From NCBI GenBank assembly GCA_014360015.1, contig JACIYJ010000002.1:1-64000 (forward strand): 64,000 nt of DNA. Direction: 5' to 3'. Made by a program: the position numbers and the translations under genes. Of the stretch, positions 4,098 through 62,258 are shown in pieces (positions within the stretch are counted from its first letter, which is position 1; each line of letters starts with the position of its first letter). Below the pieces are notes generated by a model, which saw only the letters and a program-made list of their open reading frames with translations, did not search any database and had not been told where the DNA came from. This stretch comes from Candidatus Aminicenantota bacterium (GTDB lineage Bacteria; Acidobacteriota; Aminicenantia; Aminicenantales; Saccharicenantaceae).

Positions 4098-4925
4098 ATG
4101 AGAAGATTATTCGCTTTAATGTGCCTTTTTCTTTTATTATCTGGCTTTATTTTGGCGGAAGGGGAGGTTATAGGGAAAAAAACGTTTACTATTACTATCC
4201 AGAGCGGCTGGGGAAATGCTCGAATCGGCGATATAAATGCCTATTATAAGACGCTCTGTGCTGAGGAAGTATTTAATATTCCCGAAAATGAAGGGAATAA
4301 GGTTCCCCAGCTAAGTTCTGGCTTTCCTGAGTTCTGGATAGAAGGACAATATCCTCTTAGCTGGCATCTTAGTCTGGGACTGGCAATTGGACTACCTATT
4401 ATTAAATCTGATAAAGCAATCTGGTATTCATATTTTAATGGAAGCCTTCAGCCAGTGGTGCTGAAGCCAAAAGTGACTATCTATTGTCCTATAAAGCTTA
4501 ACCTTTATTACCACTTGCCACTTTCCCGAAAGATGCAGGTTCTAATTGGCGGAGGCCCTGGAATTTATTTCACCGAGATTGGATCTCCTTTCAATGTCTA
4601 TAGCCACTTTCCTTTCGGTCTCCAGGCAGTTAGCGAACTGGAAATAAAATTGACCAAAAGGCTTTCTTTGGTAGGCGAGGGAGAATTGAGGCTGGCAAAA
4701 ATAACCAATTTTAAAGGGGATGATTATTTTGGTTGGGAAGGGACATTGTGGTATTACAAGATAAGATATCTGGGAAGCGACATCTGGTGGGATATGATTT
4801 CGGTAAGCAAAGACGCGCCGACGGAAGATCCATTTGGGGAAACATTTTATAAGGACCAGAGAAAAGCTGTATTTGATTTGAGCGGATTTTCGCTAAGAAT
4901 CGGCCTCAGGTTCAGCTTATTTTAG
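4098..4925 (+). CDS. Predicted outer-membrane β-barrel protein, paralogue of 2296-3249
   Basis: The 275-residue product has a clear signal peptide (LMCLFLLLSGFILAEG), repeated amphipathic β-strands and the terminal strand LRIGLRFSLF ending in Phe. The start at 4098 follows GGAGGG with good spacing. It aligns in order with the protein from 2296-3249, particularly the first strand, a central KLNLYYHLP / KLNVYRSF segment and the C-terminus. It is the intact member of the second, decayed peptidase/barrel unit. Function unknown; retention while its peptidase partner decayed suggests the barrel has an independent role. Confidence 0.75.
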   Translation: MRRLFALMCLFLLLSGFILAEGEVIGKKTFTITIQSGWGNARIGDINAYYKTLCAEEVFNIPENEGNKVPQLSSGFPEFWIEGQYPLSWHLSLGLAIGLPIIKSDKAIWYSYFNGSLQPVVLKPKVTIYCPIKLNLYYHLPLSRKMQVLIGGGPGIYFTEIGSPFNVYSHFPFGLQAVSELEIKLTKRLSLVGEGELRLAKITNFKGDDYFGWEGTLWYYKIRYLGSDIWWDMISVSKDAPTEDPFGETFYKDQRKAVFDLSGFSLRIGLRFSLF

Positions 4926-34768: not shown

Positions 34769-35224
34769 TTAAGAGCTTTCTATATCATATTCATCAGGCG
34801 GTGTACTCAGGTCGAGGTCAAGGTCTATGAACTTCTGTTCTAAGGAAATTATCTTCACCAGATTCCCTGGATAATTCTGGCCTTTTTTCTCTCCGTAAAC
34901 GTTGAACTGAACTCCAGTCTGATAAGGAAAGTTCTCGTTATCGTTTGTCGAAGACCATCTGACCTGCCCCAGAAGGATGAGGGGTGCTCGCTCTCCGGGG
35001 ATTGACAGCTGGAGATAAAGTCTGGTCTTCGGTTTGAGCCGGCGGCGGCAGGCAAACTTCATCCCCCCGCGGCTGAGGTCATCCAACGGACAGAATTCTT
35101 CATCAAAGTTCTTTTTCTGGAAGAGCCAGCGTTTTTTTCTATAAGAAACCGTGGCTCCAGGAATTTTAAACCTTTGACTAATGCGCTTTTCTGAATGATA
35201 AACGGGGTTGTTTTTCTTGTTCAT
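34769..35224 (-). CDS. PilZ domain protein
   Basis: The 151-residue cytoplasmic protein has the two c-di-GMP-binding signatures of PilZ domains: RxxxR (R14 to R18 in RISQR) and DxSxxG (DLSRGG near residue 51), followed by the β-barrel. It is the one stand-alone, motif-complete PilZ gene outside the 55.5-57.8 kb cluster. It probably senses c-di-GMP; its partner is unknown. Promoter TTGACA-N17-TTATAA lies 27 bases upstream of the ATG. Confidence 0.85.
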   Translation of the reverse strand: MNKKNNPVYHSEKRISQRFKIPGATVSYRKKRWLFQKKNFDEEFCPLDDLSRGGMKFACRRRLKPKTRLYLQLSIPGERAPLILLGQVRWSSTNDNENFPYQTGVQFNVYGEKKGQNYPGNLVKIISLEQKFIDLDLDLSTPPDEYDIESS

Positions 35225-53041: not shown

Positions 53042-54328
53042 TTAAAACTTTTTTACCTTTAAAGTCAGGTTGCTTTTAACTTCGACAACCTGAACTTTAT
53101 CTCCCCGGTTGATGACATCATCGGACACAGCTCTCCAGATCTCACCATGAACAAACACTTTTCCATCAGGGGCGAAGGAAGTCAGAGCTGTGCCGATTTC
53201 ACCGATCATCCCTTCTTTCCCGGTCAGAGTCCTCTTGGTATGGACTTTTATCACCAAATAAACCAGGAGAATGAAAACCAGAGAAACACCCAGGGCCACC
53301 GGGATGATGTATTTGAGACTCGGACGAAGCTCCGGGATGGGAGCCCTGATTAACATGATGGACCCGAGAACCACAGAAATTATTCCACCCATGGTTAAAG
53401 CTCCATAACTGTGAACTTTAACTTCAAGAATAAAAAGGACAGTGCCCAGGATGATCAAAAGTAAACCGACATAATTTACAGGCAGAATCTGGAAGGAGAA
53501 AAAAGCCAGAAGAAGGCTGATGCCGCCGATGACTCCCGGTAATACAGCTCCTGGGTTGGCAAATTCGAAATAGAGCCCCAGCAAACCTACCATCAGCAGA
53601 ATATAAGCCAGGTTGGGATTGGCGATGGTCATCAGGAATTTCTGGCGGATGGTCATCGGCACTTCCACTATCGGCTCATCTTTTAGCTTGAGTTCTTCTA
53701 TCCGTCCATCAAACCTTTTTATTTTTCGACCGTCGAGAGCCCGAATAAGTTCGTCTTCAGAGTTGGCTACCAAGTCTATGATTTTGCCCTTGAGGGCTTC
53801 CTGCTCGGTGTAGCTCAGACTCTTTCTGACTGCATCTTCAGCCATCTGGATATTTCGGTTTCTTTTTTCGGCCAAAGTCCTGATATAAGCAGCAGCATCA
53901 TGGGTGACTTTTTCTTCCATGGTTTTATCTTGCTGCTGGCCGGTGAGAGCGACACTGACCGGATGGGCGGCGCCGGTGCTGGTTCCGGGAGCCATGGCAA
54001 AGACATCGCAGGCCACAGAAATAAAAAATCCGGCTGAGGCGGCTCGAGCTCCATACGGGCTGACATAGGCGACTACCGGTACGGGCGAATTGACGATTCC
54101 TTCGATTATCTCCCGCATCGAAGAATCCAGTCCACCTGGGGTATTCAGCTTGATGATTAAAAGTTTGGCCTGCTCTTCCCGGGCTTTTTCCAGTGATTTC
54201 AAAATGAACTCGGCCGTCACCGGATGAATCGGAGCTTTGATAGTTATGGTCAGGATCCTGGCCTGAACAGAAACAGCGCTTCCGAGCAAAATCAGGAGAA
54301 TTAGGACGGAACCGAAAACTTTTCTCAC
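53042..54328 (-). CDS. NfeD family membrane serine protease
   Basis: The 429-residue protein starts at GTG 54328; the upstream frame start at 54394 would include the promoter. After a signal peptide ([17 protein letters not shown]) it has a ClpP-like domain ([14 protein letters not shown], the catalytic Ser in [17 protein letters not shown]), four or five transmembrane helices and a C-terminal NfeD OB-fold domain ([29 protein letters not shown]). Long NfeD (STOPP-type) proteases cleave stomatin C-termini, and the next gene encodes that partner. Confidence 0.92.
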
Positions 54329-54337
54329 GGCAAACTC

Positions 54338-54366
54338 ATTATAAGAACTAACTTCTGATAAGTCAA
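54338..54366 (-). promoter_or_regulatory. Promoter of nfeD, leaderless type
   Basis: On the minus strand TTGACT (54361-54366), exactly 17 bases, then TATAAT (54338-54343), with the -10 box ending nine bases before the GTG start. The predicted leader is two to three bases and there is no Shine-Dalgarno sequence. Confidence 0.7.
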
Positions 54367-54464
54367 TTGAATACTTTGAATGGTAACTTGACATTTTACT
54401 TTTATTAAACTAATTTTACTCTATTAATTTTTATACCAATTCCTCGCGGATAAGGAGACTGCTG

Positions 54465-54752
54465 ATGATAAAGAATGACATAGCCATGTTGCTGGAGCGA
54501 AAAGGCAATTTTAGCCGGGCCAAGTCTGTCTTAATCGTTGAAACCATCCTGGAATCTTTAAAGAATGCCCTCCTTAACGGAGAAAAAATAGAAATTCGTG
54601 GATTTGGCAGTTTCCGGGTAGTTCCCAAAAAATCTGGTTATGGCCGTGATATCCGCCGGAACAAACAAATTCCTATCTCAGGCGGAAAAAGAGTCAAATT
54701 CCGGCCTGGTCAGGATTTCAAAAAGCAGCTTAAGAAGCAGTCAATAGAATAG
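54465..54752 (+). CDS. HU/IHF family DNA-binding protein
   Basis: The 95-residue protein has the HU/IHF fold: an N-terminal helical hairpin (SRAKSVLIVETILESLKNALLNG), the strand EIRGFGSFRVV and the basic β-arm (RRNKQIPISGGKRVKFRPG). It bends DNA as a dimer and is closer to IHF-type in its arm. AAGGAG precedes the ATG. A TTGACA at 54388-54393 may be part of its promoter, but no good -10 is clear. Confidence 0.93.
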   Translation: MIKNDIAMLLERKGNFSRAKSVLIVETILESLKNALLNGEKIEIRGFGSFRVVPKKSGYGRDIRRNKQIPISGGKRVKFRPGQDFKKQLKKQSIE

Positions 54753-54838
54753 AATTTAACCGCTTTTCTTTGCCTTCACTTTTCTCCCATTCGCTTGGCT
54801 TTTGATTTTTATTATTATCGTCTGCTCCTTTTAATTTT

Positions 54839-55480
54839 TTAGCCGCGGCCTTTCATCAAGCGGCCTATCTTCTTGAGCATAACATCCTGGTATAGATTAA
54901 AATAAACCTGTTCGGTCTGTTCGATAGTTTCAGCCAGAGTGCCAGAAGTATTTATCAGGTAATGAGCGTAAGGAATTTTTTCTTCGTCGGGCAGTTGAGC
55001 CTTGATTTTTTCCAGGGCTTTTTCCCGCGAAATTCCATCCCGCTGACATAGTCTTTCCACCTGAATTTCTGGACGGCAGTGAGTGAGAATAACACGATCA
55101 TAAAAATCGTAATACCCTGCTTCAATCACCAGAGCGGCTTCAGTGAGATAAATCTCATGGCTGCCCGTCTCTTCCAGTTGAGCAATAGTCTGTTTGACCT
55201 TCTCCAGAACCTTGGGGTGGGTTAGGCGATTGAGAAATTCTCTTTCTTCTGGATTTTTAAAAATTATTTCACCCAACTTTTTCCGGTCAATGGTAGAATC
55301 ATCTTTAAGAATAGTTTTTCCGAAGTGACCAATAAGTTCCGACCAGATTTCACCACCCGGAGACATCAACTGGTGAGCCACCTGGTCAGCATTCTGGACG
55401 AAACAGCCCTTTTCGCTTAAAATTCTGGCCACTACTGATTTTCCGGTAGCAATTCCACCGGTCAAAGCGACGATCAACAC
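54839..55480 (-). CDS. coaE: Dephospho-CoA kinase
   Basis: The 213-residue kinase performs the last step of coenzyme A synthesis. The P-loop is LTGGIATGKSVVARIL, followed by VQNADQVAHQLM, a substrate-binding region (HPKVLEKV) and the lid with CQRDGISREKALEKIKAQ. Length is normal. It is the last gene of the minus-strand PilZ/LuxR group, 19 bases after a PilZ gene. Confidence 0.94.
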   Translation of the reverse strand: MLIVALTGGIATGKSVVARILSEKGCFVQNADQVAHQLMSPGGEIWSELIGHFGKTILKDDSTIDRKKLGEIIFKNPEEREFLNRLTHPKVLEKVKQTIAQLEETGSHEIYLTEAALVIEAGYYDFYDRVILTHCRPEIQVERLCQRDGISREKALEKIKAQLPDEEKIPYAHYLINTSGTLAETIEQTEQVYFNLYQDVMLKKIGRLMKGRG

Positions 55481-55499
55481 TTTATTTCCTGATACTGGT

Positions 55500-55901
55500 T
55501 CAGTCTTCTACCTGAAAACGGAAATCCTTGTTGAACCTGACGGCCACGCCCTGCTTTCTGGTTTTTTCCCCCTTTTTTTCCAGGCGAACAATCACTCCAT
55601 CCAGGCAGAGTTTGACTTTTTTCCCTTCAGTGATTTGCGGCGGAAGCTCAATTGACAGGTTGACCTTGGAGCCTATTACCAGACTGGAATCAAGGGAAAA
55701 ATAAGCTCCGGTTGAAGAGATATTCTCCAGAATGGTTTTTTCTTTGAATTTCTTGCCCTGGGGCAGCTGTCCTTCGATTTCAGCCGGCAGCGGCAGTTCA
55801 AACCTCCATTCTCGGCGTCGGTTGACTACAATCGGAGTCTTGACCGAATTTTTTATTTTCCTGGTGCTTTTTTTCGCTTTGGTTTTAGTTTTTTCTACCA
55901 T
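55500..55901 (-). CDS. PilZ domain protein, motifs conserved
   Basis: A 133-residue protein with a Lys-rich N-terminal tail and a PilZ domain. The RxxxR signature (R29 to R33 in RREWR) and NxSxxG (NISSTG) are both present, so it should bind c-di-GMP. It has a GAGGGGG ribosome binding site. It is the downstream member of three PilZ-like genes that surround a LuxR-type regulator; the other two lack these motifs. Confidence 0.8.
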   Translation of the reverse strand: MVEKTKTKAKKSTRKIKNSVKTPIVVNRRREWRFELPLPAEIEGQLPQGKKFKEKTILENISSTGAYFSLDSSLVIGSKVNLSIELPPQITEGKKVKLCLDGVIVRLEKKGEKTRKQGVAVRFNKDFRFQVED

Positions 55902-55922
55902 AATTCCCCCTCGTTCCTGACA

Positions 55923-56633
55923 TTAAAATAGAGCTGAATTTATGGCGTAAAGAGCCAACTGCAGGCGGCTGTGAGTATCCAGCTTGGCGTAGATGCTCTT
56001 GATGTGAGACCGAACCGTGTTTTTACTGATGAACATAATTTTGGCGATCTCTTCATTGCTCTTTCCCTGTCCAATCAGGCGCAGAACCTGAAATTCGGTC
56101 GGGGTCAGCTGGTCCAGGGTTTTTTCTTTCATATCCCGGCCGACTACCGAAATAATTCTGTCCATAATACTGGACATTTTATCTCGTGGCAGCCAGATTT
56201 CGCCCTTGTTGACCACTCGGATAGCTTCAGCCAGCTGATTGGCTGGGTCGTTGAGGTCGAAATAACCTCTGGCGCCGGAATTGATCAGGTTGATGATCTC
56301 CTCATGAGACGGGATGTTCCCAAGAAGAAGGAGTTGAGTTTTAATCTGGGGCTTGATCAGCTCTTTGATAGCTTTGCAGATTTCTTTAAGATGGGGGAGT
56401 GGTTCGAGGTGAGCGAACAGAATAACCTGAGGTTTAAGCTGTCTGATGGAATCCATAAAATTCTCGATGGTCCCTTTTTCTACGGTCATAATTTTGATTC
56501 CCTTGTCAGGTTCGAGGGCTTTAAGAATTCCATTCAGGATAAGGTCAGAAGGACAATAAATCAGAAGATTGACTTTTTCCAGGCTGGTAGAAGGCGTTTT
56601 TAGTTTAGTCTTAGCGGCTTGCTTTTTTGGCAT
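55923..56633 (-). CDS. LuxR/NarL-type regulator with degenerate receiver domain
   Basis: The 236-residue protein has an N-terminal receiver-like fold and a C-terminal LuxR HTH (LTPTEFQVLRLIGQGKSNEE, KNTVRSHIKSIYAKL, about residues 172-230). The strand that normally carries the phosphoacceptor Asp (VILFD/VVLMD) reads VILFAHLEP, with Ala74-His75 in its place, so phosphorylation is unlikely. The Lys/Thr-rich first 20 residues resemble the tails of the neighbouring PilZ proteins. It probably regulates transcription in response to something other than phosphotransfer. Confidence 0.85.
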   Translation of the reverse strand: MPKKQAAKTKLKTPSTSLEKVNLLIYCPSDLILNGILKALEPDKGIKIMTVEKGTIENFMDSIRQLKPQVILFAHLEPLPHLKEICKAIKELIKPQIKTQLLLLGNIPSHEEIINLINSGARGYFDLNDPANQLAEAIRVVNKGEIWLPRDKMSSIMDRIISVVGRDMKEKTLDQLTPTEFQVLRLIGQGKSNEEIAKIMFISKNTVRSHIKSIYAKLDTHSRLQLALYAINSALF

Positions 56634-56672
56634 GCCCTTTTACCCCTCGTAAAATTTTTCATTTCTAAAAAT

Positions 56673-56702
56673 TAGATATTATAACCGAAGAAAGGTGTCA
56701 AG
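56673..56702 (-). promoter_or_regulatory. Possible promoter of the LuxR-type regulator
   Basis: On the minus strand a consensus TTGACA (56697-56702) lies 18 bases from TATCTA (56673-56678); an overlapping TATAAT is too close (12 bases) to pair with it. Leader of about 35 bases. Confidence 0.4.
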
Positions 56703-56800
56703 TAATAAATTCTTTCCAGTAAATTCAGGGCCGGAACTCGGAGTAGACTAAATTTTCTATGGCTGAAGGTAAGAATGAAAGACTGATAAAAATTGAAAGA

Positions 56801-57196
56801 TTAATTATGGGAAGTCTGGCTGACTGGATGGAGCTGAAATCTGCGGTCAAGTTCGATGGTAACCAGCTGCAGGAATTTTTTATCGCTATTGATTTCGACC
56901 CGGCTGATCTTTCCTGAAATCTCGAGCTTTAAGGGATGTATCAGGAAGAGGGTAGCCGGAACGTTTAAGGTGAGCTTTAAAGGCGTTCCTATTTTTACCG
57001 GAGTTTTAAGCCGGAAGGAAGCTTGCTTTGAACTTATGGTCATCAACTCGGTATTTTCCTTAAATTTTTTTCCTGAAGCATTTTCCCCGACGACCAAAGT
57101 CAGAAGGGAGAGCTCCAGCAGGCACTCTCTCTTCCGATCTCCGGTTACGCCTTGGATGGAGGATTTATTATACTTCTGGAGACTTCCAGTTTTCAT
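56801..57196 (-). CDS. PilZ-like protein with degenerate c-di-GMP motifs
   Basis: A 131-residue protein from ATG 57196; a TTG at 57214 is less likely. Its order of segments parallels the PilZ protein at 55500-55901 (GKKFKENTELMTISSKQASF versus GKKFKEKTILENISSTGAYF), but RxxxR is reduced to RKREC and NxSxxG to ISSKQA. It therefore keeps the fold and has lost the ligand residues. A TATAAT lies 25 bases upstream of the start. Confidence 0.65.
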   Translation of the reverse strand: MKTGSLQKYNKSSIQGVTGDRKRECLLELSLLTLVVGENASGKKFKENTELMTISSKQASFRLKTPVKIGTPLKLTLNVPATLFLIHPLKLEISGKISRVEINSDKKFLQLVTIELDRRFQLHPVSQTSHN

Positions 57197-57382
57197 GGGA
57201 AATGTATTTTTCAACCTCTTATTATACCGGGCAATCCCTCATCTGGATGAATCAAAGGGTGATTTTTTTGGCCAAGAATCACCCATGCTTACTACATAAT
57301 AAAGCTACTCTATCATCTATTAAATAGACGGCTGGAGTAAAGGTTTTTTTTTCATCTTTTAAAGTTATTTCTGCGAACAGCG

Positions 57383-57754
57383 TCAGACCTCATTAGCTCC
57401 GATGAAATATCGAGAATCAAGCTTCAGCAGAATCTTTTTAGCTTTATCCTCACCAGGAACAGGTTCTACTGAAACCACTTTTCCTTTGAGCACCAGGTTG
57501 AGTGGCTGTCCATCAGCCAGCTTCGGGGGTAGGGGGATGACCAGTTTTAAGAGCGATTGCCGCTCAACCTTAGTTTTCAATAAAAAGCTGGCTTCTTCGC
57601 TGCTGATGAAAGACAGAACTGATGGCTCCTGAAATTCCTGGCCCTGAGCGTCTATTCCTGAAACCTTCATGGGCAAAGGCATATTAAATCCCCTGGGACT
57701 CTGTCCATCAGGGAGCCTATCTACGGTTGAATTCTTGACCTTTCTTGTTCTCAT
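57383..57754 (-). CDS. PilZ-like protein with degenerate c-di-GMP motifs
   Basis: A 123-residue protein from ATG 57754, with AAGGAAG eight bases upstream; the frame also has a TTG at 57775. It parallels the other two PilZ-like proteins (EFQEPSVLSFISSEEASFLL, then LVIPLPPKLADGQPLNLVLKG), but carries no RxxxR and FISSEEA in place of NxSxxG. It is the first gene of the minus-strand group and is preceded by a structured, terminator-like leader at 57839-57903. Confidence 0.65.
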   Translation of the reverse strand: MRTRKVKNSTVDRLPDGQSPRGFNMPLPMKVSGIDAQGQEFQEPSVLSFISSEEASFLLKTKVERQSLLKLVIPLPPKLADGQPLNLVLKGKVVSVEPVPGEDKAKKILLKLDSRYFIGANEV

Positions 57755-57838
57755 AGTCGACGCTTCCTTTTCCAAAAATTTAAACTTTGGAATTTAATCT
57801 ACCCGGTTCCATCAGGTTTTCAATCATCCCTGAAGATG

Positions 57839-57903
57839 AAAAAAAGGGGTATTTTCTTCTCACCCCCGGCCATTGCCGATACTGGCCACCCTCACCCCTT
57901 TCC
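57839..57903 (-). ncRNA. Terminator-like structured leader upstream of the PilZ cluster
   Basis: Read on the minus strand, AAAGGGGT (57894-57901) pairs with ACCCC (57846-57850) and the following T run of seven (57839-57845). The enclosed region holds a GGCCA/TGGCC hairpin with a 10-base loop and a second G run (GGGGG) that can pair with the same CCCC. Two alternative stems before a T run is the layout of an attenuator or riboswitch expression platform. No known riboswitch consensus is recognised; a plain terminator is the alternative. Confidence 0.45.
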
Positions 57904-57932
57904 TTGACAAAAATTCTGGCGCTGGTTAGAAT
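57904..57932 (+). promoter_or_regulatory. Promoter of proS
   Basis: TTGACA (57904-57909), exactly 17 bases, then TAGAAT (57927-57932). The start near 57939 leaves a 22-base leader with TTGGAGG (57944-57950). A T-box leader is excluded by the short distance. Confidence 0.7.
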
Positions 57933-57960
57933 TAGCCAAAGCGTTGGAGGTTAGTTCAAA

Positions 57961-59409
57961 GTGAGTGAAGAACGATTTGTTACTCAAATTACTCCTAAAA
58001 GCGAAGACTTTTCGCGCTGGTACATTGACCTCATCCGCCGAGCTGAACTGGCTGATTATGCCCCGATGAAAGGTATGATGGTCATCAGACCATACGGTTA
58101 TGCCATCTGGGAAAACATCCAGAAATTGCTCGACCGACGGATAAAAGCCACCGGTCATGTCAACGCCTATTTTCCGGTTTTCATCCCTGAAAGTTTTCTC
58201 CGCAAGGAAATGGAACATCTCAAAGGTTTCGCTCCTGAAGTGGCCTGGGTAACCCACGGTGGAGACGATGAACTGGAGGAACGTTTGGCTGTGCGTCCAA
58301 CTTCAGAAGCCATCATCGGTTTTATGTATTCAAAATGGATTAAATCCTGGAGAGATTTGCCGGTTCTGATAAACCAGTGGGCTAATGTTGTCCGCTGGGA
58401 AAAAGTAACCCGTCCTTTTCTCAGGACTACTGAGTTCCTCTGGCAGGAAGGTCATACGGCCCATGAAACTTATGAAGAGGCCCAGGAAGAAACCATACGC
58501 ATCCTGGAAATGTACCGGGAATTTGTGGAAACCGAGTTAGCCATTCCAGTAATTCACGGTCGAAAAACTGACCGGGAAAAATTTGCTGGAGCATTAGCCA
58601 CCTATGCCATCGAAGCCCTAATGTCCGACGGCAAAGCCCTGCAGATGGGAACGTCTCACAACCTGGGCCAGCATTTTGCTCAGGTCTTCAACATCAGGTT
58701 TGAAGATCGCCACCAGAACCTTCAGTATGTCTGGCAGACTTCCTGGGGTGTCTCCACTCGTTTAATCGGAGCCTTAGTGATGTCGCACGGAGATGATTCT
58801 GGTCTGGTTTTTCCGCCACAGGTGGCTCCGATTCAGATCATCATTGTGCCCATTTCTGTGGGCAACTGGAAAGAAACAGTCCTGCCTGTGGCTAAGGAGC
58901 TAAAAGACTCGCTGGAAAGGGCTGGACTCAGAGTTTTTCTTGACGACCGGACAGAATATACCCCGGGTTGGAAATTCTCTGAATGGGAAATGCGCGGCGT
59001 GCCGTTAAGGCTGGAAATCGGTCCCCGGGATGTCAAAAACAATCAGGTGATAGCTGTCCGTCGGGAGAACAAAGATAAAATAGCTCTCGATCTCACCGGA
59101 ATCGAGCAGAAGGTCAAAGAGCTTCTGGCAGAGATTCAGAAAGCGATTTATGAAAAAGCCCTGGCTTTTCAGAAAGAAAATACTCGCGAAGTTTCTACAT
59201 ATGAGGAATTCAAGTCGTTGATAGAAGATAAAAGGGGGTTCATCAAAGCTTTCTGGTGTGGAGCTGAAGAGTGCGAAGCAAAAATCAAAGAAGAGACCAT
59301 GGCCACCATCCGGGTGATACCGATGGATCAGGAAAAAGGTCAGAAAGGGAGATGCCTTTATTGCCAGAAAGAAGCTGAGACCGTGGCCGTTTTTGCCCGG
59401 TCTTATTGA
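57961..59409 (+). CDS. proS: Prolyl-tRNA synthetase, archaeal/eukaryotic-like type
   Basis: The 482-residue class II enzyme charges tRNA-Pro. It lacks the long bacterial insertion (INS) domain and has the C-terminal zinc-binding-like domain (CGAEECEAKI, then GRCLYCQ) with a terminal Tyr of the archaeal/eukaryotic type. Motif 1-3 segments are FIPESFLRKEMEHL, TRPFLRTTEFLWQEGHTAH and SWGVSTRLIGALVMSHGDD. It starts at GTG 57961 after TTGGAGG. This type is found in several bacterial phyla. Confidence 0.95.
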   Translation: MSEERFVTQITPKSEDFSRWYIDLIRRAELADYAPMKGMMVIRPYGYAIWENIQKLLDRRIKATGHVNAYFPVFIPESFLRKEMEHLKGFAPEVAWVTHGGDDELEERLAVRPTSEAIIGFMYSKWIKSWRDLPVLINQWANVVRWEKVTRPFLRTTEFLWQEGHTAHETYEEAQEETIRILEMYREFVETELAIPVIHGRKTDREKFAGALATYAIEALMSDGKALQMGTSHNLGQHFAQVFNIRFEDRHQNLQYVWQTSWGVSTRLIGALVMSHGDDSGLVFPPQVAPIQIIIVPISVGNWKETVLPVAKELKDSLERAGLRVFLDDRTEYTPGWKFSEWEMRGVPLRLEIGPRDVKNNQVIAVRRENKDKIALDLTGIEQKVKELLAEIQKAIYEKALAFQKENTREVSTYEEFKSLIEDKRGFIKAFWCGAEECEAKIKEETMATIRVIPMDQEKGQKGRCLYCQKEAETVAVFARSY

Positions 59410-59476
59410 TTTAAGCCGCAAAAAGAAAATCGAAATAGATCGGGAAAAACGCTTTCCCATCAAAAAGGAGCCCGGG

Positions 59477-60115
59477 GTGAGCAACCAGTCAACCTTTGAT
59501 GAAGAAAGGAAAAATATGGTTGAATTCCAGATCCAGAAGCGGGGTATTAAGGATAGAAAAGTTCTGGAAGCCATGCTTAAGGTTCCGAGGCATCTTTTTG
59601 TCCCAGAACAGATGAAAGAGCTGGCTTACGGTGATGAGCCCCTGCCCATAGGTGAGGGTCAGACCATCTCTCAGCCTTATATCGTGGCCTATATGACTGA
59701 AGCCTTAAAGCTCACAGGTAACGAACGAGTCTTAGAAATTGGTACTGGCTCGGGCTATCAAACTGCTATTCTGGCTGAAATAGTTAAAGAAGTTTATACG
59801 GTTGAGGTGATACCGGAGCTATCCCGAAGAGCTCAAAAAGTTTTAGCCGAGCTTGGCTATAATAATATAAAATTCTTAATCGGCGACGGCACCAGAGGCT
59901 GGCCCGAACACGCTCCTTATGATGCTATTCTGGTCTCAGCCGCTCCGGCGACTGTGCCCAGGACGCTTGTCGACCAGCTTAAGATCAATGGTCGGATGAT
60001 CATTCCGGTGGGTACAGATTTTCAGGAACTGGTGCTGGTCAGAAGAAAAAAAGATGGTTGGGAGGAAGAGAGACTGATCGGGGTGAGGTTTGTTCCGCTG
60101 GTCACTATCCATTAA
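59477..60115 (+). CDS. pcm: Protein-L-isoaspartate O-methyltransferase
   Basis: The 212-residue SAM-dependent enzyme repairs isoaspartyl residues in damaged proteins. Motifs are GEGQTISQPYIVAYMTEAL, the SAM loop VLEIGTGSGYQTAIL and ILVSAAPATVP. The start is taken at GTG 59477, six bases after AAAGGAG; the frame is open from 59393 inside proS, which would give a charged non-conserved extension. It is probably cotranscribed with proS. Confidence 0.92.
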   Translation: MSNQSTFDEERKNMVEFQIQKRGIKDRKVLEAMLKVPRHLFVPEQMKELAYGDEPLPIGEGQTISQPYIVAYMTEALKLTGNERVLEIGTGSGYQTAILAEIVKEVYTVEVIPELSRRAQKVLAELGYNNIKFLIGDGTRGWPEHAPYDAILVSAAPATVPRTLVDQLKINGRMIIPVGTDFQELVLVRRKKDGWEEERLIGVRFVPLVTIH

Positions 60116-60666: not shown

Positions 60667-61293
60667 TTACTGACTCAACTGATAAATTAGCTCGGGCTTT
60701 TTACCAGGGGTCTGGCCATAATAAAAAAGCCATAGATGGTAATACTCTTCACCGTTGTAGATTTTTATCGATTTTTCAGTGGAAGAGCTGACCACTCCGA
60801 CAATTTGCGGGTTTCTGATTTTCTTTATAGCTTCTGGAGAAACTACCAAAAGTTTTTCAGTGCTCCCTAACTGAGCTGTTCGGGGCTGAGCTGAAGCTGG
60901 AGTGGAAACCGTGACCGGAGGAATCAAAAGCAAGTTCCATTGGCCAGTCGCAGACATCGGGTCTGGATAGAGTTTTCTCAAACATTTCTGTTTAACCAGC
61001 TCTTCGAGCGATGAAGGGTAAGTGCCAGGTTTTTTCTGCTGGTAGAGGCGGATGGCTTCCACATACTGTCTGCCTCTGAAGATCAGCTCTTCTTCTTTTT
61101 CTCTTTTCATCTCTGTTTCCAGAACCGGGACAGCTACCAACAAGCTTAAAGTCAGGACAAAAACAATGATCAATAGGAGTATCAGAACGTATCCTTCCGG
61201 AAAATGAAAAATAAGTCTCTCTTTTGAATTTATCGCCTCGAAATCTGAACTGGTCTTATTTGACCCGGCTGAAGATGATTTTATCTGGTTCAT
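60667..61293 (-). CDS. Pseudopilin-like protein without a standard prepilin site
   Basis: A 208-residue protein with a 37-residue hydrophilic N-terminus, one transmembrane helix (YVLILLLIIVFVLTLSLLVA) and the α-helical PVLETEMKREKEEELIFRGRQYVEAI segment that continues into a YPSSLEELV region, as in the GspG-like protein encoded at 61746-62258. The G-F-T-L-x-E prepilin peptidase site is replaced by EGYVLIL, lacking Glu+5, so it may not be processed or assembled normally. It is the last of three such genes. Confidence 0.7.
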   Translation of the reverse strand: MNQIKSSSAGSNKTSSDFEAINSKERLIFHFPEGYVLILLLIIVFVLTLSLLVAVPVLETEMKREKEEELIFRGRQYVEAIRLYQQKKPGTYPSSLEELVKQKCLRKLYPDPMSATGQWNLLLIPPVTVSTPASAQPRTAQLGSTEKLLVVSPEAIKKIRNPQIVGVVSSSTEKSIKIYNGEEYYHLWLFYYGQTPGKKPELIYQLSQ

Positions 61294-61330
61294 TTTTTAA
61301 TTTTTCATTTTTCCGTAAACAGTTTTTCTT

Positions 61331-61744
61331 TTACCAGGTGTTGTAATAAGTTCCATCCAGAGCCTTCGCTTCAGAGCCTGATTTGACGTCCACCACACCC
61401 AGATTTTCAGGGGGGATGTACTCATCGGTTGGGGGCATCTGTCTTATTTCTACCCAAGTTTCAGAAGAACCGGTGATGGGGTCAACAGGGATGGATTTCA
61501 AATAATGTTCTTCCACCAGAGCTTGAAGCGACGGAGGATAACGATGTTTGTCCTGGTAATACTGGTCGATCAGCTTGCGCAGGATGAACAGGTTTTCTTT
61601 TAGTACCGCTTCCTTAGCTCTTTTCACCGACATCTGATACTGGGGAACAGCCAGACCAAGTAAAATACCGATAATGCTCAGGACGATAAGGATTTCAATC
61701 AAGGTGAAACCTTTGGAGTGCTTAAGCTTATCAAAAGATATCAT
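61331..61744 (-). CDS. Type II secretion/type IV pilus-like pseudopilin (GspG-like)
   Basis: A 137-residue prepilin. ATG 61744 gives a short leader with the cleavage site KG/FTLIEILIVLS at about residue 11 and the conserved Glu+5; the frame start at 61846 lies inside the upstream gene. The C-terminal half (HRYPPSLQALVEEHYLKSIPVDPIT) is typical of major pseudopilins (GspG), with the calcium-binding-like ending. It begins one base after the previous gene's stop. Confidence 0.88.
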   Translation of the reverse strand: MISFDKLKHSKGFTLIEILIVLSIIGILLGLAVPQYQMSVKRAKEAVLKENLFILRKLIDQYYQDKHRYPPSLQALVEEHYLKSIPVDPITGSSETWVEIRQMPPTDEYIPPENLGVVDVKSGSEAKALDGTYYNTW

Positions 61745-61745
61745 T

Positions 61746-62258
61746 TTACCAGTCCCGGTATTTAGTTCCATCGAGAGCCGTGGCCTGGCTCTTGGTGTAA
61801 ACATCATAAACGTTTTGACCTCCCCAGGTATCTGACCCGGGCTCATCCTGATAAGACCTCAGACCCCATTCATAGGAGTCGGTCATTGGGTCTTTCGGGA
61901 TTCTTCGGAGAAAGCGAACCAACACTTTTTTGACAGTTTTTTTACCGGTTGGGTCAGTGACTTCTTCCTCTATTTCCACCCCTTTGACCAGAGTTTCCAA
62001 GTCAGGCGGATAGCCATAGGAGTCCTCGTCGACCTTAATTTTTTTTTCATCAGCCAGCCTTTTGTACTCATCGATAGCTTCGCGGATGAGTCTCAGGTTT
62101 CGTCGTAGTTCGGCTTCTTTTTCTCTTTTGACCGAAGTTTCGATGACCGGGATGGCCACAGAAGTCAGGATGGCTAAAATAGAAAGGGTAACTACCATCT
62201 CCAGCAGAGTAAACCCCGGGCCTCTGTCTGAGGAAAAAATTCTGGATTTTCTCCTCAT
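61746..62258 (-). CDS. Type II secretion/type IV pilus-like pseudopilin (GspG-like)
   Basis: A 170-residue prepilin with the site PG/FTLLEMVVTLS at about residue 14 and Glu+5 intact. After the long helix it has an inserted charged segment (GVEIEEEVTDPTGKKTVKK) before the RRIPKDPMTDSYEWGLRSY core, and it ends DGTKYRDW, matching DGTYYNTW at the end of the next gene. It lies 12 bases after pnp. The secretion or pilus apparatus genes are not in the window. Confidence 0.88.
   Translation of the reverse strand: MRRKSRIFSSDRGPGFTLLEMVVTLSILAILTSVAIPVIETSVKREKEAELRRNLRLIREAIDEYKRLADEKKIKVDEDSYGYPPDLETLVKGVEIEEEVTDPTGKKTVKKVLVRFLRRIPKDPMTDSYEWGLRSYQDEPGSDTWGGQNVYDVYTKSQATALDGTKYRDW

Follow-up and report, generated by a model that had tools for sequence, protein, structure and literature searches.

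A pseudo-receiver LuxR-type regulator, three PilZ paralogues and an operator-like element shared with type IV pilus genes in Aminicenantales

Gene content and conservation of the locus

The window analysed here is a stretch of 64,000 nucleotides from a Candidatus Aminicenantota bacterium of the order Aminicenantales (assembly GCA_014360015.1, contig JACIYJ010000002.1, positions 1 to 64,000). On its minus strand, between 54839 and 57775, five genes are transcribed in the order pilZ3, pilZ2, luxR, pilZ1 and coaE. They encode a LuxR-type regulator without the usual phosphotransfer residues in its receiver, three PilZ-like proteins, one of which keeps the motifs for binding cyclic dimeric guanosine monophosphate (c-di-GMP), and a dephospho-CoA kinase. 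An operator-like DNA element before pilZ2 and pilZ3 recurs throughout the order, also before type IV pilus genes. The closest named relatives found were Candidatus Saccharicenans and other Aminicenantes genomes, in keeping with this order. A preliminary description of this DNA had reported three PilZ-like genes around a regulator with a dead receiver, and we found all four open reading frames (ORFs) in that arrangement. The genes are as follows.

57383 to 57754, minus strand: pilZ3, PilZ paralogue without ligand motifs and without a Pfam or NCBIfam match; start at ATG 57754, the longest ORF beginning at TTG 57775
56801 to 57196, minus strand: pilZ2, PilZ paralogue without ligand motifs; start at ATG 57196 preferred to TTG 57214
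55923 to 56633, minus strand: luxR, order-specific NarL-type regulator with a pseudo-receiver and a nearly invariant C-terminal half
55500 to 55901, minus strand: pilZ1, PilZ domain with RxxxR and NxSxxG and a lysine-rich N-terminal tail
54839 to 55480, minus strand: coaE, dephospho-CoA kinase, which probably closes the luxR operon (median gap to pilZ1 of 24 bases in 77 loci)

The locus is flanked by proS, divergent at 57961, and by an HU gene past coaE. We compared 81 regulator loci, namely the window and 80 kept of the 222 found. pilZ1 directly follows luxR in all 81, with a median gap of 27 bases that never exceeds 450. The gap between pilZ1 and coaE likewise never exceeds 450 bases in the 77 loci where it could be taken, and that between pilZ2 and luxR has a median of 187 bases (73 loci). 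Two pilZ genes lie upstream of luxR in 54 loci, one in 19 and none in eight. In these eight, the contig breaks off no further than about 500 bases upstream of luxR, and at least one upstream pilZ was found in all 73 loci whose contig extends far enough. The gene order is kept across Aminicenantales, as the preliminary description had proposed to check. Its picture of the locus is correct for the genes it named and needs two amendments: coaE is linked to pilZ1 as tightly as luxR is, and the start of pilZ2 moves to 57196. Conserved gene order was dropped as a proof of function, since coaE and proS are about equally conserved here.

A regulator with a pseudo-receiver domain

The regulator is composed of a receiver-like part and a GerE helix-turn-helix domain. 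The GerE profile matched at 1.7e-20, and no Response_reg match was found in the protein at E 1. When the catalytic columns of the receiver were mapped through alignments to NarL-type regulators, the usual residues of the acidic pair, the phosphoacceptor Asp, the Thr/Ser and the Lys were absent at the corresponding columns in all 81 sequences, which extends to the whole set the earlier remark that the phosphoacceptor is missing. The structure model combines a receiver-like fold with a helix-turn-helix, and its closest Foldseek matches are LiaR, VraR and NarL. Residues 146-151 and most of 156-236 are invariant across the 81 regulators. It is very likely that control of this regulator is independent of phosphorylation.

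In a class sample of 60 genomes (23 Aminicenantales and 37 others), the regulator was present in 23/23 genomes of the order and, at a comparable score, in 0/37 of the others, where the best match reached 6.4e-19. In a second set of 60 relatives, 54 contained a strong orthologue. The six genomes without one (G001, G007, G012, G020, G032 and G047) are incomplete or fragmented; in G020, a contig with pilZ-type sites of the element described below stops before the luxR position. The regulator occurs in essentially every Aminicenantales genome.

VpsT and CsgD carry a c-di-GMP-binding motif, W[FLM][TS]R, at the base of helix 6. The regulator might itself sense c-di-GMP through the base of its sixth helix, as VpsT does, with the PilZ genes being mere targets or neighbours. 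W147-L148-P149-R150 is invariant in all 81 sequences and aligns with EMWLTR of VpsT, in which the R134A substitution abolishes c-di-GMP binding (PMC3359988, available text). Set against this, the third position of WLPR is Pro in all 81 sequences instead of the Thr or Ser of the motif, which is therefore not matched, and Foldseek places LiaR, VraR and NarL above VpsT. The W..R pair is also found in five of the eight alignable relatives outside the order, one of them with a normal receiver, and is thus unspecific. Direct sensing is in our view unlikely, and it was rejected as a candidate mechanism.

PilZ paralogues

PilZ1 matches the Pfam PilZ family (PF07238) at 4.1e-10 and 40.4 bits, with a cut-off of 22.5. 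Searches of PilZ2 and PilZ3 against Pfam and NCBIfam matched no family. Profile comparison with hhalign identified both as paralogues of PilZ1, with probabilities of 99.6% and 99.8%, respectively. The structure model of PilZ2 (predicted local distance difference test score 81.6) has PilZ structures as its best matches, including the PilZ domains of MotI, Alg44 and MrkH.

The ligand motifs were read in an alignment of 206 rows (79 PilZ1, 73 PilZ2 and 54 PilZ3), which excluded fragments shorter than about 70 residues, so that PilZ1 counts 79 rows and not 81. Both RxxxR and [ND]xSxxG are retained in 79/79 PilZ1 sequences, and neither occurs in PilZ2 (0/73 for each). In PilZ3, RxxxR is absent (0/54) and [ND]xSxxG is found once (1/54), S..G being kept in 35/54. 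For PilZ2 and PilZ3 pooled, this amounts to 0/127 and 1/127, respectively. The copy at 55500-55901 is indeed the one that keeps the ligand motifs, and this holds across the order. A tree of the 206 rows, which rests on few columns, contains three clades: pilZ1 with 79 rows (support 99), pilZ2 with 67 (support 99) and pilZ3 with 60 (support 91), the last consisting of 54 copies in the distal position and six that are the only or the nearest upstream copy. The three clades indicate that the duplications predate the families of the order, and the motif status across the 206 rows shows that the loss in PilZ2 and PilZ3 is old and fixed and not a recent decay. Judging from its motifs, PilZ1 is probably a c-di-GMP sensor.

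PilZ1 and many of its orthologues also carry a lysine-rich N-terminal tail (KTKTKAKKSTRKIKNSVK, encoded at 55830-55901 of the window), which could touch nucleic acid. A further PilZ domain gene lies outside the locus, at 34898-35101 of the window.

Promoters and an operator-like element

Four promoter and operator features were identified computationally.

56673 to 56701, minus strand: promoter of luxR-pilZ1-coaE, TTGACA, 17 bases, TATCTA
57206 to 57211, minus strand: predicted -10 of pilZ2, AAAAAT, 20 bases past GATTG of the operator-like element, the same spacing as in 51/60 pilZ2 sites
57232 to 57263, minus strand: operator-like element upstream of pilZ2, ATCACCC-N5-TTCATC-N9-GATTG, a perfect match
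57821 to 57852, minus strand: operator-like element upstream of pilZ3, ATACCCC-N5-TTCATC-N9-GATTG, one mismatch in the home-genome scan

The genes luxR, pilZ1 and coaE appear to form a single operon, transcribed from a near-consensus promoter of its own. TTGACA occurs upstream of luxR in 75/81 loci, together with a -10-like hexamer at 16-18 bases in 64/81, and TTGACA was found in 41/810 shuffled controls. Before pilZ2 and pilZ3 lies an element of fixed spacing, ATNACCC-N5-WTCAYC-N9-GATTG, which overlaps the -35 boxes. Scored out of 18 against the strict pattern ATCACCC-N5-TTCATC-N9-GATTG, it reaches at least 15 in 58/73 pilZ2 upstream regions (shuffled maximum 14/18, 365 sequences) and in 48/53 pilZ3 upstream regions (shuffled maximum 13/18, 265 sequences). 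GATTG supplies the TTG of the -35 box. A -10 placed 20 bases after GATTG, as in 51 of the 60 pilZ2 promoters, stands 17 bases after a TTGNNN -35. The longer TTG start of pilZ2 at 57214 is upstream of the predicted -10, which makes ATG 57196 the likely start.

A good pilZ2 site is missing in 15 loci. In 11 of these, pilZ2 begins at most 48 bases from the end of pilZ3 and the site stands before pilZ3. One of the other four has no upstream sequence, and three are real exceptions (L104, L120 with 13/18, and L166). In loci with a pilZ2 site, the gap between pilZ3 and pilZ2 is at least 79 bases; the element thus goes with the promoter and not with the gene. The promoter evidence suggests that pilZ2 and pilZ3 are transcription units apart from luxR-pilZ1, under an operator common to type IV pilus genes.

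The messenger RNA of pilZ2 appears to be leaderless or nearly so (57194-57211 of the window), the first in-frame start lying at most 15 bases past the predicted -10 in 51/60 loci (median 10). The pilZ3 leader is longer and has an AGGA-type ribosome site. No Rfam match at the gathering threshold was found in window positions 54000-60000, and the element, being upstream of the -10, should stay untranscribed from that promoter; an RNA element or riboswitch was rejected on both grounds. Autoregulation of luxR was likewise rejected, the element being at shuffle level upstream of this gene. TCACCCC repeats were seen by eye before luxR in one genus.

These promoters bear on the proposal of the preliminary description that PilZ1, PilZ2, PilZ3 and the regulator form a single complex turning c-di-GMP directly into transcription. 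All the parts are conserved together across the order, PilZ domains can oligomerise, as the tetrameric XCC6012 does (PMC3131395, available text), and a pair of a PilZ protein and a transcription factor is already known (PMC10912698, abstract). Nevertheless, pilZ2 and pilZ3 seem to be regulated along with pilus genes and apart from luxR-pilZ1. The single upstream pilZ is of the pilZ3 clade in six loci of the tree, and only a pilZ2-type gene is upstream in 13/81 loci, which makes a fixed stoichiometry unlikely. We consider such a complex improbable. The wider idea, a c-di-GMP circuit that works without phosphorylation, fares better in part: control is very likely independent of phosphorylation, and the genome encodes c-di-GMP enzymes, whereas the promoters of pilZ2 and pilZ3 point to separate, pilus-linked units.

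Distribution of the element and its target genes

Genomes were scanned with W and Y allowed and at most one mismatch, the reversed pattern serving as control. The element was detected in 60/60 relatives, with 279 sites and none for the reversed control. In the class sample, 108 sites were found in 23/23 genomes of the order versus six sites in 5/37 others, and the reversed control gave two in all 60 genomes. The three best sites of the home genome precede pilZ2, a minor-pilin operon (C29:109690) and pilZ3; the site at C29:109690 lies 205 bases before a GspH/FimT-like gene. Four further home sites appear at two mismatches, one before a gene for a protein with receiver and TonB domains (REC-TonB, L323), one before a Memo-like gene (L200) and two chance-like ones (L201 and L324) with no target-like gene; the reversed pattern gave two home sites at this threshold. 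At three mismatches to the strict pattern, most home sites are chance-like, and ten such loci matched no target protein. A Memo-like gene is found downstream of a site in two families of the order (L200 in the home genome and L215), at 368 to about 1700 bases, so that the link to the gene is unsure.

For the minor-pilin genes, FimT-like matches were obtained in 53 genomes, and among the best 30 loci, which were the ones tested, a site within 400 bases upstream was present in 18/30 at no more than one mismatch and in 26/30 at no more than three, with 0/600 shuffles at the latter threshold. To classify targets more widely, we tallied 80 loci hand-picked among the matches listed, outside the luxR locus, considering genes within 1600 bases downstream. 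Two of the 80 are pilZ3 upstream regions on other contigs, and one is the home minor-pilin locus. The query proteins were taken from some of the tallied loci, so each class includes at least one self-match; cross-matches among REC-TonB, histidine kinase, GGDEF and HD-GYP proteins were sorted by best score, and reading frames in loci rich in guanine and cytosine were called crudely. With these limits, the tally comprises minor pilins (10), other PilZ proteins (8), REC-TonB (6), a Wzx-like flippase (5), SLT transglycosylases (4), PilM, CHAT-TPR proteins and histidine kinases (3 each), PilB-PilT, response regulator-GGDEF proteins, HD-GYP, a two-component propeller and pilZ3-pilZ2 (2 each), and CheR (1). 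About a third of the 80 loci matched none of the target queries.

The REC-TonB protein, an unusual combination in which a long linker joins a receiver domain to a C-terminal TonB domain, recurs as a target (L226, L240, L261, L269, L273, L282 and L323 of the home genome). In relative G029, two identical operator sites (C125:4295-4326 and 4378-4409), 83 bases apart, precede one REC-TonB gene.

The distribution of the element could also be that of a different transcription factor restricted to the order, or of an alternative sigma factor, in which case the LuxR protein would be an unrelated neighbour. Co-distribution at the level of the order fits any order-specific factor, and the element is missing from the luxR promoter. 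However, two sites of the strongest class in the 2.7 Mb home genome adjoin luxR, the protein (23/23 versus 0/37) and the element share the same distribution, with sites at chance level outside the order, and a near-invariant DNA-binding half fits a near-invariant element. The spacing of the -35 and -10 boxes is of the sigma-70 kind, which speaks against an alternative sigma factor. On balance, ownership by another factor seems rather unlikely.

The neighbourhood might, alternatively, be a slowly rearranging, stable region whose genes have no functional link, and coaE, proS and HU do hold their places too. This is very unlikely: a common operator ties pilZ2 and pilZ3 to distant pilus genes, every aligned PilZ1 retains its motifs, and luxR-pilZ1 is uninterrupted in each of the loci compared.

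c-di-GMP enzymes and the proposed circuit

Enzymes of c-di-GMP metabolism are widespread in the order. GGDEF domains were detected in 59/60 relatives and number seven in the home genome, where GGEEF and GGDEF motifs were read in two proteins, two HD-GYP domains keep the HD and the GYP region, and nine HD_5 matches were obtained. The exception, relative G057, has an intact PilZ1 and no GGDEF match; its genome is 90% complete and fragmented.

We favour, with some confidence, the reading that the operator is bound by the pseudo-receiver regulator, which thereby governs a regulon of type IV pilus and c-di-GMP genes and probably receives its c-di-GMP input from PilZ1. The regulator, with a receiver devoid of phosphotransfer chemistry, would be made together with PilZ1 from a strong promoter and would bind the TCAYCC-type half-sites of the element. 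It most likely activates weak promoters by contact at the -35 box, which the element overlaps. Its targets would be pilZ2, pilZ3, the minor-pilin operon and the REC-TonB gene and, in other families, pilB-pilT, pilM, further pilZ genes, and GGDEF and HD-GYP genes. PilZ1, as the sole intact PilZ of the set, most likely binds the regulator and in this way brings in the c-di-GMP signal. For PilZ2 and PilZ3, the most likely role is a downstream action on the machinery of the pilus, or else feedback to the regulator.

Several observations weigh against this interpretation. The element is not enriched before luxR itself (81 loci, best score 13/18, shuffles up to 14), and the operator could belong to a different DNA-binding protein specific to the order. 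Many sites stand before genes that have no obvious connection with pili or c-di-GMP. The home genome gave no match to the EAL domain. Other PilZ proteins are encoded in this and other genomes, the home genome having four PilZ matches at Pfam level in all. The interval between luxR and pilZ2 is broken, exceeding 450 bases, in 5/73 loci. Finally, pilZ1-coaE is as conserved as luxR-pilZ1, so that adjacency to PilZ1 alone is no proof of partnership.

More tentatively, the whole may be an order-wide circuit that needs no phosphorylation and in which c-di-GMP-bound PilZ1 switches the regulator. One operator would then drive pilus assembly, the synthesis and breakdown of c-di-GMP, and two ligand-less PilZ proteins that either affect the motor of the pilus or provide built-in feedback by competing with PilZ1.

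Comparison with known systems

The individual components belong to known kinds, namely pseudo-receiver regulators, PilZ adaptors acting on regulators and non-binding PilZ proteins of the pilus. The preliminary description raised the possibility of a new type of circuit, but action of a PilZ protein on a transcription factor is in itself no novelty: in Pseudomonas aeruginosa, TssZ serves as a PilZ adaptor on the transcription regulator HinK (PMC10912698). Both cases involve a single-domain PilZ with RxxxR that works, or would work, on a transcription regulator with c-di-GMP as input. HinK is of the LasR type, in contrast to the NarL-type pseudo-receiver found here, and the abstract of that report contains no operon with the regulator, no non-binding PilZ targets and no pilus regulon, all of which are proposed here.

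VpsT and CsgD resemble the present regulator in being of the LuxR/FixJ type, in having a receiver whose switching does not depend on phosphorylation and in their link to c-di-GMP (PMC3359988, available text). The difference lies in WLPR, which is one position off, and in the frequency of W..R among relatives, so that direct sensing is unsupported by sequence. XAC1133 is a PilZ protein that does not bind c-di-GMP, serves type IV pili and is bound by PilB and FimX (PMC3131395, available text). PilZ2 and PilZ3 share with it the PilZ fold, a loss of c-di-GMP binding that is here predicted from the motifs, and a tie to type IV pili. Unlike XAC1133, they are connected with the pilus by the common operator alone, and the best structural matches, obtained with the PilZ2 model, are other PilZ proteins.

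As in pseudo-receiver regulators generally, a receiver fold without phosphotransfer residues is joined to a DNA-binding output. A 2025 review calls the switching of such proteins a mystery, and PilZ is not mentioned in its main text (PMC12632262); here, a candidate partner (PilZ1), an operator and a regulon are proposed. If correct, the circuit would reveal the control of a receiver that lacks phosphotransfer chemistry. Since a candidate input protein, a DNA element and a set of targets are all conserved here, the question of switching becomes directly testable with small recombinant proteins. As far as the literature searched goes, in which subscription journals are mostly missing, the combination of these components, with pilus and c-di-GMP genes under a single operator throughout an order, is new. 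That literature contained no paper that connects Aminicenantes with PilZ or with c-di-GMP and, by title, none joining aminicenant and regulon that treats such a regulator. For Aminicenantales, whose members are known mainly through metagenome-assembled genomes, the targets would constitute a first regulon, comprising pili and enzymes of c-di-GMP metabolism.

Additional observations

Three pseudopilin-like genes lie at 60667-62258 of the window, 3-5 kb from the locus, an arrangement shared by the genus and its family; the operator scan gave no site near them in the window. The chromosome record CP070825.1 contains two different copies of the luxR-pilZ1 region (L133 and L148), which are 71-73% identical to the regulator of the window and reflect either a mixed assembly or a second copy. 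The Aminicenantales locus was also retrieved from records titled Clostridiales and Zixibacteria (L109 and L144), which are probably mislabelled or mixed bins.

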